Assembly: GCA_026388275.1 (NCBI GenBank)
Contig: JAPLKB010000003.1
Location: forward strand, 1 to 49,448
DNA: 49,448 nt
From: Pseudomonadota bacterium
GTDB taxonomy: Bacteria > Desulfobacterota > Syntrophorhabdia > Syntrophorhabdales > Syntrophorhabdaceae
Direction: 5' to 3'
The notes beneath the pieces were generated by a model that saw only the letters and a list, made by a program, of their open reading frames with translations, was not told the DNA's origin and searched no databases. How positions within the stretch are numbered: the stretch's first letter is position 1; the number at the start of each line of letters is the position of its first letter. Below, one piece after another: positions 2,671 to 49,340 of the stretch. The position numbers and the translations under genes are program-made.

Positions 2671-2861
2671 ATTCCGGATTCGCATCAGCGTGAAGGCTGA
2701 TCGAATCCGGATTGAGTGGGCGACGGCATGGCGGGGATGTTCAGATTTGGATGGGCTGTGAGCTTTGCAGGCCGTAATCGTACTGAACGTACGATGGAGG
2801 ATCGCAAGGCGAAGCAGACCGCCGAAGATGGACATCCCCGCCATGCCGTCGCCCGACCAAG
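2671..2861. repeat. Dispersed structured repeat, copy 1
   Basis: Three nested or adjacent pairings are visible. Hairpin I joins TCCGGATTCG (2673-2682) to CGAATCCGGA (2702-2711) with inner arms ATCAGC/GCTGAT. A perfect 23-base inverted repeat joins 2718-2740 to 2832-2854 and encloses the rest. Inside it, ATCGTAC (2777-2783) pairs with GTACGAT (2789-2795) around a 5-base loop, followed by GGAGGATCGCAAGGCGAAGC. A related copy lies at 8427-8652 and a more distant relative at 49222-49340. Short ORFs read through it on both strands and are not genes. Confidence 0.75.
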
Positions 2862-8237: not shown

Positions 8238-8426
8238 AGCGAACGTAAGTGAGCGAACATCCCACGTTCATACAGGAAGTAAGGAGGGGGTAATATAAGC
8301 CCCTTGGTATTGTCAATAGTTGCATGAAAAATTGGTTCGCAAAATGAATATATACAAGCCTCTATAAGACAAAATAAGGGGGAGGCAGAAAATAAAATTG
8401 AAAATGAAGAAACTCACCCCCTTCTT

Positions 8427-8652
8427 TATTCCGGATTCACATAAGCGTATATGTGAATCCGGTTTGAGTGGGCAGCGGCATGTCGGGGATTTTGCAGATG
8501 TGGATGGGCTGTGAGATTTGCAGGCCGCAGACGTACTCAATGTACGTCGGAGGATCGCAAGGCGAAGCAGACCGCCGCAGATCAATATCCATCGCAAGGC
8601 GAAGCAGACCGCCGCAGATCAATATCCCCGAACATGCTGATGACCGACCAAG
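8427..8652. repeat. Dispersed structured repeat, copy 2
   Basis: Same order of elements as the copy at 2671-2861. Hairpin I: CCGGATTCACATA (8431-8443) pairs perfectly with TATGTGAATCCGG (8450-8462), with arms changed together relative to copy 1. The enclosing arms are 8470-8490 and 8624-8645, now imperfect. The inner hairpin is GACGTAC (8530-8536) with GTACGTC (8542-8548), again changed on both sides relative to ATCGTAC/GTACGAT in copy 1. An internal 37-base unit is duplicated. Short ORFs through this element are treated as spurious. Confidence 0.75.
8554..8627. repeat. Perfect 37-bp tandem duplication inside repeat copy 2
   Basis: Bases 8554-8590 and 8591-8627 are identical (each starts ATCGCAAGGCGAAGCAGACC and ends ATCAATATCC). 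Copy 1 of the repeat carries this segment only once, so the duplication is specific to copy 2. Confidence 0.9.
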
Positions 8653-8735
8653 AGAAAAGAACTAAAAATACTCAAGAAACAAAACAATATTATGAAAACT
8701 TTTGACATAACCAGCCCCTTTAAAAGGAGGAAACG

Positions 8736-9191
8736 ATGAAGAGACTTCTCGATATCCATGATGCAACAAAAGAACTGAACATACTGCGAGCCCTTGAGAA
8801 CTATAAAAGCCCTTTCGAGATTGTAGGAACATACAGGCTGATTGATGACGGTATCAGGCCTGAAGCAACGGTTATTATAAAAGCAAATAAAAAGCAGATG
8901 CATGAAGCTTCAACCGGTGTGGGGCCGGTAGATGCTTTGGCAAATGTATTAAAAATATCACTGTCATCGGTTTTCCCTGCAATCCAGGGCATTAAACTTG
9001 TAGATTTTGCTTCAAGAATCCACGACTCAAGATCCGGGACATCTGCAAAGGTTGAAGTTTCCATTATTTTTACCGATGGCAAGGATATCTGGAGCGTCGC
9101 GGCAGTTTCCGATAACATCAACAAGGCATCCTTTATGGCACTTATAGACGGGTTTGAATATGCGATCATGTCAAAAAGCAATAATGAATAA
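8736..9191 (+). CDS. Stand-alone LeuA-type (isopropylmalate synthase) allosteric domain protein, 151 aa
   Basis: The whole protein after residue ~27 matches the regulatory domain found at the C-terminus of isopropylmalate and citramalate synthases, without any TIM barrel. Compare GVGPVDALANVLKISLSSVFPAIQ here with [24 protein letters not shown] in CimA, and GKDIWSVAAVSDNINKASFMALIDGFEYAI here with [30 protein letters not shown]. Such domains bind leucine or isoleucine and dimerise. A GGAGGAAACG precedes the ATG. It lies about 600 bases after cimA, separated by the two structured repeats. A role as a separate regulatory subunit or amino-acid sensor is inference; a remnant of a lost synthase is possible, but the N-terminal 27 residues and ribosome-binding site look intact. 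Confidence 0.8.
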   Translation: MKRLLDIHDATKELNILRALENYKSPFEIVGTYRLIDDGIRPEATVIIKANKKQMHEASTGVGPVDALANVLKISLSSVFPAIQGIKLVDFASRIHDSRSGTSAKVEVSIIFTDGKDIWSVAAVSDNINKASFMALIDGFEYAIMSKSNNE

Positions 9192-49221: not shown

Positions 49222-49340
49222 CTGATTCCAATTCTAAATCAAGGATGAAATCGAGGCGGCAAGGAAGAGGCGACGTAGGCGTACTATAATAGTACGTCGG
49301 AGGAGCAGATGACGAAGCCAACGATGATAGCGCCTTCCCC
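49222..49340. repeat. Possible distant copy of the dispersed structured repeat
   Basis: The palindrome CGTACTATAATAGTACG (49280-49296) is followed by TCGGAGGAGCAGATGACGAAG, matching the GTACGTCGGAGGA core and the GACGAAGC/GGCGAAGC continuation in the copy at 8427-8652. The outer arms and hairpin I are not obvious. It follows the operon terminator; no gene is seen from here to the window end. Confidence 0.5.

Follow-up and report, generated by a model that had tools for sequence, protein, structure and literature searches.

The repeat in the window

The window, i.e. the whole stretch of 49,448 nucleotides analysed, is contig C3 of a 3.53-Mb assembly with 71 contigs. It contains two copies of a structured repeat, each with a hairpin I, a long hairpin II and an inner (apical) hairpin within the latter. 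Their features are as follows.

2671..2861, forward strand: hairpin core of copy 1 (hairpin I and hairpin II), element ends eroded
2672..2711, forward strand: hairpin I of copy 1
2718..2854, forward strand: hairpin II of copy 1, perfect 23-base arms 2718-2740 / 2832-2854
2777..2795, forward strand: inner (apical) hairpin of copy 1, ATCGTAC/GTACGAT
8298..8305, forward strand: left target duplication of copy 2, AGCCCCTT
8306..8712, forward strand: copy 2, complete element, very probably a MITE (see below)
8306..8321, forward strand: left terminal inverted repeat of copy 2, GGTATTGTCAATAGTT
8431..8462, forward strand: hairpin I of copy 2
8464..8646, forward strand: hairpin II of copy 2, outer stem damaged by a duplication
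8530..8548, forward strand: inner (apical) hairpin of copy 2, GACGTAC/GTACGTC
8554..8627, forward strand: 37-bp tandem duplication in copy 2 (8554-8590, 8591-8627)
8697..8712, reverse strand: right terminal inverted repeat of copy 2 (AACTTTTGACATAACC on the forward strand)
8713..8720, forward strand: right target duplication of copy 2, AGCCCCTT

The arms quoted for both copies in a preliminary description of this DNA were found at the positions it gave and pair as it claimed, and the 23-base arms that enclose hairpin II of copy 1 are fully complementary, as it had said. The interval it assigned to the repeat has to be extended: the repeat is real, but the true unit is longer, since copy 2 occupies 8306-8712 with inverted repeats and an 8-bp target duplication. 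No recognisable element ends were seen in copy 1. The predicted fold of copy 1 has an energy of -133.4 kcal/mol compared with -69.9 +/- 4.5 in shuffled sequences (z -14.2), and the corresponding z of copy 2 is -7.2. The outer stem of copy 2 is damaged because the 37-bp tandem duplication is located in its 3' arm. The insertion of copy 2 stops 24 bp upstream of the start codon (ATG) of a short LeuA_dimer-domain gene at 8736-9191. At 49225-49336, the window also contains a hairpin repeat of a second family (GAGGCGGCAAGGAAGAGGCGACGTAGGCGTACTATAATAGTACGTCGGAGGAGCAGATGACGAAGCC), with an apex similar to that of the hairpin described here; it has 90% matches in loci L014 and L010 and partial ones in L004, L038 and L051.

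Evidence for a transposable element

The preliminary description left three options for the repeat, namely a REP/BIME-like element, a non-coding RNA family or a non-autonomous transposon. A BLAST search with copy 1 against its own genome gave 42 matches in about 40 places, so the objection that there might be no further copies falls. When the copies were aligned together with their flanks, conserved ends GGTATTGTCAAAAGTT...AACTTTTGACAATACC emerged. With at most 2 mismatches, the end sequence GGTATTGTCAAAAGTT occurs at 55 sites of the genome, compared to 4 sites for the reversed control, and through it extra elements were detected that have the same ends and an altered or deleted core. Good copies are about 360-410 bp long; GGTATTGTCAAAAGTT forms their terminal inverted repeats, and they are flanked by 8-bp target duplications. 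Both ends are present in 16 elements. With the deletion forms included, 143-471 bp lie between the ends, which is under the MITE limit of about 600 bp. In 6 of the 16 elements, the target duplications agree in at least 7 of their 8 bases when read in the exact register, and a clear target duplication is absent in the other 10; clear examples are aaagagat (L003), gcaggata (L009) and agcccctt (copy 2 of the window). Internal deletion forms of 250 and 143 bp retain both ends. At the one site for which an empty counterpart is shown, that of copy 2, the second genome of the same genus (G001) has flanks 86% and 80% identical that lie 24 bp apart, and the target AGCCCC occurs once.

The inverted ends, the 8-bp duplications and the empty site therefore identify a non-autonomous transposon, the last of the three options, and not a REP/BIME element. 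We consider it very probable that the repeat is a MITE, a short non-autonomous element that carries no gene itself and is moved in trans by a DDE-type transposase. The core length differs by 1-2 bases among members, which argues against a conserved reading frame. We infer both the enzyme class and its action in trans: such a transposase would act on the terminal inverted repeats and, judging from the ends and the duplications, would make 8-bp staggered cuts at the target.

An autonomous partner with the same ends was not found in the own genome. Transposases of the families PF01609, PF12762 and PF01610 had no match there, and no end pairs 0.8-2.5 kb apart exist among its GGTATTGTCAAAAGTT-type sites. 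Known MITEs are often without an identified autonomous parent. End pairs were screened for such a partner in the own genome, in six others, in two genomes that have more than 100 end sequences each and in 1.3 Mb of loci; they turned out to be only MITE pairs flanking ordinary genes. An insertion sequence in genome G427 (L255, 1282-3119, with DUF772 and DDE_Tnp_1_6) was also rejected as a partner; its ends are GAGACTGTCGAAAAA, unlike those of the MITE. This insertion sequence is flanked by palindromic sequence and not by a clear target duplication.

Two different foreign repeats were observed at the hairpin apex, one in L042, L045 and L050 and the other in L046, L047 and L060, as though other elements preferentially landed there or the apex were exchanged as a module. 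Plasmid and phage records were searched for the repeat, and none was found.

Co-variation and strand asymmetry of the fold

From two copies, the preliminary description had concluded that both arms change together so that pairing is kept. This holds far beyond the two. In hairpin I, there are 24 distinct arm pairs among 39 copies, and an uninterrupted stem of 8-15 bp is kept in 38 of the 39 (G-T counted as a pair). An alignment of 23 diverse members has 95.9% of its stem cells paired and two-sided changes at 20 of 40 pairs, compared with 5-10 in slid controls, over which the structure is favoured by being derived from the same alignment; none of 500 shuffles was as good on any of five measures. 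When 28 distant members were fitted to the model, a procedure which leans towards the structure, two-sided changes appeared at 34 of the 40 pairs. To our knowledge, MITE transposition is not known to require a conserved internal fold, and so the MITE explanation alone leaves the co-variation unexplained.

Compared with its complement, the forward strand gives the better fold in 149 of 153 sequences, which come from partly overlapping sets. G-U cells in the stems outnumber A-C cells by 104 to 8, and by 18 to 5 if only pairs found in both strands' folds are counted. This asymmetry suggests that one of the strands is the molecule that folds; it fits RNA and single-stranded DNA alike, and it is weakened by the shared descent of the sequences. 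Erosion of the ends is not accompanied by a loss of fold stability (rho -0.10, p 0.56). Two internal loops, AGAT opposite AGAT and TGAGGAATGA / GCAGTGACGAA, are conserved across the wider family described below. The fold may be kept because it is needed by the element, or by its source copy, as a single-stranded molecule. That molecule could be a transcript, or else DNA in single-stranded form during replication or transposition, and the better-folding strand would be the relevant one.

Relatives in other genomes

The covariance model that the preliminary description had proposed was built for hairpin II from 23 sequences (R1), and it has matches in other genera and in more distant genomes. 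Both window copies were recovered, copy 2 with 117 bits and copy 1 with 166 bits, a score that is not independent since copy 1 was itself used to build R1. Other genera of the family have strong members, such as those in G030 (129 bits), G026 (91) and G032 (85), and weaker ones of about 35-60 bits occur in many genomes of the phylum. Altogether, 84 of 395 sampled genomes have a match at E <= 1e-4, the E-values being rough. The weak members have a common motif, CAGATGCAAGGCGCGCAAATCCTGAGGARTGAGGCGTAC-loop-GTACGCCGCARYGACGAAGGATGCAGCGCAACGCCGCAGATGG.

A first exact pattern was too specific and had no match in public genomes. A pattern for the apex matches at least 120 stretches there; in this set the apex is invariant by construction. 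Among the matches listed are Deltaproteobacteria (Desulfobacterales, Desulfobulbaceae, Syntrophales, Geobacter, Desulfuromonadales) and Nitrospirae. R1 recovers 35 of 40 tested apex-pattern loci at E <= 0.01, mostly at full length. Typical elements of this wider family are about 145 bp long, with ends formed by GGCNTCGTAAAAAGTC-like repeats and target duplications of 8-9 bp. Target-duplication bases match at 7 or 8 of 8 positions in 24 of 59 elements, and at most wrong offsets none does. Two genomes have more than 100 exact end sequences each.

Hairpin-core relatives across so many Deltaproteobacteria and Nitrospirae are unusual for a MITE. Other genera and another phylum have MITEs with the same core and different inverted repeats, and the core thus appears to predate the present ends or to be independent of them. 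The inside is conserved and the ends differ between groups, which is the reverse of what is expected for a MITE having only its ends in common with its parent.

Several minor observations concern the wider family. Some IMG/VR contigs (L259-L271) bear copies, including a 50-kb contig with four exact pattern matches; these are possibly proviruses or a sign of phage-borne spread. In G427, a Desulfobacterales assembly, many contigs (L224-L231) begin near the hairpin apex, and the repeat is one that breaks short-read assemblies. In L103-L222, the element often begins at the stop codon of the neighbouring gene, and the next antisense gene lies at a median of -2 bp according to heuristic gene calls.

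Explanations for the conserved fold

What keeps the fold is a separate question from how the element moves. The hairpin core may be a functional RNA, regulatory or processing, that rides on MITEs and whose pairs are kept by selection after insertion. Its pairs co-vary across genera and in more distant genomes, the forward strand folds better, G-U is preferred over A-C even at the pairs formed on both strands, and the fold is retained where the ends of a copy are eroded. In addition, a Geobacter repeat family has been termed 'predicted short RNA elements', with one of them inside an operon in two species, according to the part of that article considered here (PMC2700814). On the other hand, the strand asymmetry may come from one ancestor, and no orientation preference relative to genes is seen in the own genome (23/37). 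In the wider set, only 19 of 70 cases have the better-folding strand sense to the next gene, so that it is mostly antisense (p 0.0002, heuristic gene calls), and therefore a simple mRNA element is not favoured. At the curated score, Rfam gave no match, whether in the window or over the elements contained in the loci of 16 relatives. The non-coding RNA option of the preliminary description may still hold, given the co-varying pairs and the better-folding strand, but no Rfam family matches it. We regard such an RNA as rather unlikely.

Quasipalindrome correction is a known process at imperfect palindromes, in which a template switch within the hairpin during replication overwrites one arm with the sequence of its partner. 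Mutation and not selection would then maintain the pairing, and the arms would agree without any function. It would suit hairpin I, whose arms stay perfect though their sequence varies freely, and the outer arms of relatives, which differ as whole blocks. However, it should erase mismatches within the stem, yet the two internal loops are conserved in the wider family, and it should favour neither strand, yet the forward strand folds better. The conserved in-stem mismatches speak against palindrome correction as the sole cause, and we judge this explanation possible, though on the unlikely side.

Movement by a RAYT (Y1 tyrosine) transposase, which would recognise a hairpin carrying a GTGG-like tag at the foot, would make the repeat a REP/BIME-type element. 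The repeat is palindromic, high in copy number and mostly intergenic, and most members of the window group and of its close relatives have GTGG just 5' of the long hairpin, but it is not retained in the wider family. RAYT/IS200-type movement is not known to leave a target duplication. REPs measure 20-40 bp, as stated in the part of the source considered here (PMC3733652), compared with a unit of 145-410 bp that has inverted ends and 8-bp duplications. The REP/BIME-like option of the preliminary description was therefore given up, and we find it highly improbable.

The MITE reading can also be combined with a structural role of the core. The core would then be a functional structured RNA or a single-stranded DNA signal, conserved over two phyla, its stems co-varying and its internal mismatches fixed, and carried by successive MITEs with changing ends, i.e. 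a mobile structured-RNA family missing from Rfam. We offer this combined proposal as a speculative and unlikely one. The repeat provides a large natural data set, with about 40 copies here, more than 100 end sequences in each of two genomes and many genera, and could be used to test what keeps a fold in a selfish element: selection, the transposition mechanism or palindrome correction.

Relation to known elements

We found no description of the cross-phylum core or its co-variation in the open-licence literature. REP, BIME and REPIN sequences resemble the window MITE as dispersed intergenic palindromes of high copy number; they are much shorter and without terminal inverted repeats and target duplication. 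Two known MITEs were compared by description only, from the part of one source considered here (PMC10969869). QMITE2 of Coxiella burnetii is about 190 bp long with 7-9 bp direct repeats and inverted ends; it is predicted to give a stable stem-loop transcript and is a source of a small RNA. It is like the window MITE in being short and in having direct repeats and inverted ends, whereas it belongs to another class of bacteria and the part considered describes no co-variation or cross-genus core (PMC10969869). The Chunjie MITE of Geobacter uraniireducens (Chen 2008) measures 178-235 bp, has terminal repeats, both inverted and direct, and occurs in 38 copies and 57 partial ones (PMC10969869); its size and copy number are similar to those of the window MITE, and its host belongs to the same class of bacteria.

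The closest relation is to the 'predicted short RNA elements' that Aklujkar et al. described in Geobacter metallireducens as multicopy and intergenic, like the MITE family, and reported also in G. sulfurreducens, G. uraniireducens and Desulfotalea (PMC2700814). Unlike for the MITE family, the part of that article considered here mentions no inverted repeats, target duplications or co-variation. Of 258 loci, only member L085 has an exact match to the published central palindrome of the Geobacter elements, the 19-mer GRCGTAGCGCTGCTACGCC, and there the match lies at the hairpin apex. On this sequence match, the Geobacter elements are therefore very probably the same family. An intergenic repeat that recurs unannotated in Deltaproteobacteria and Nitrospirae, and that appears in the Geobacter literature as predicted RNAs, thereby acquires a name and an anatomy.
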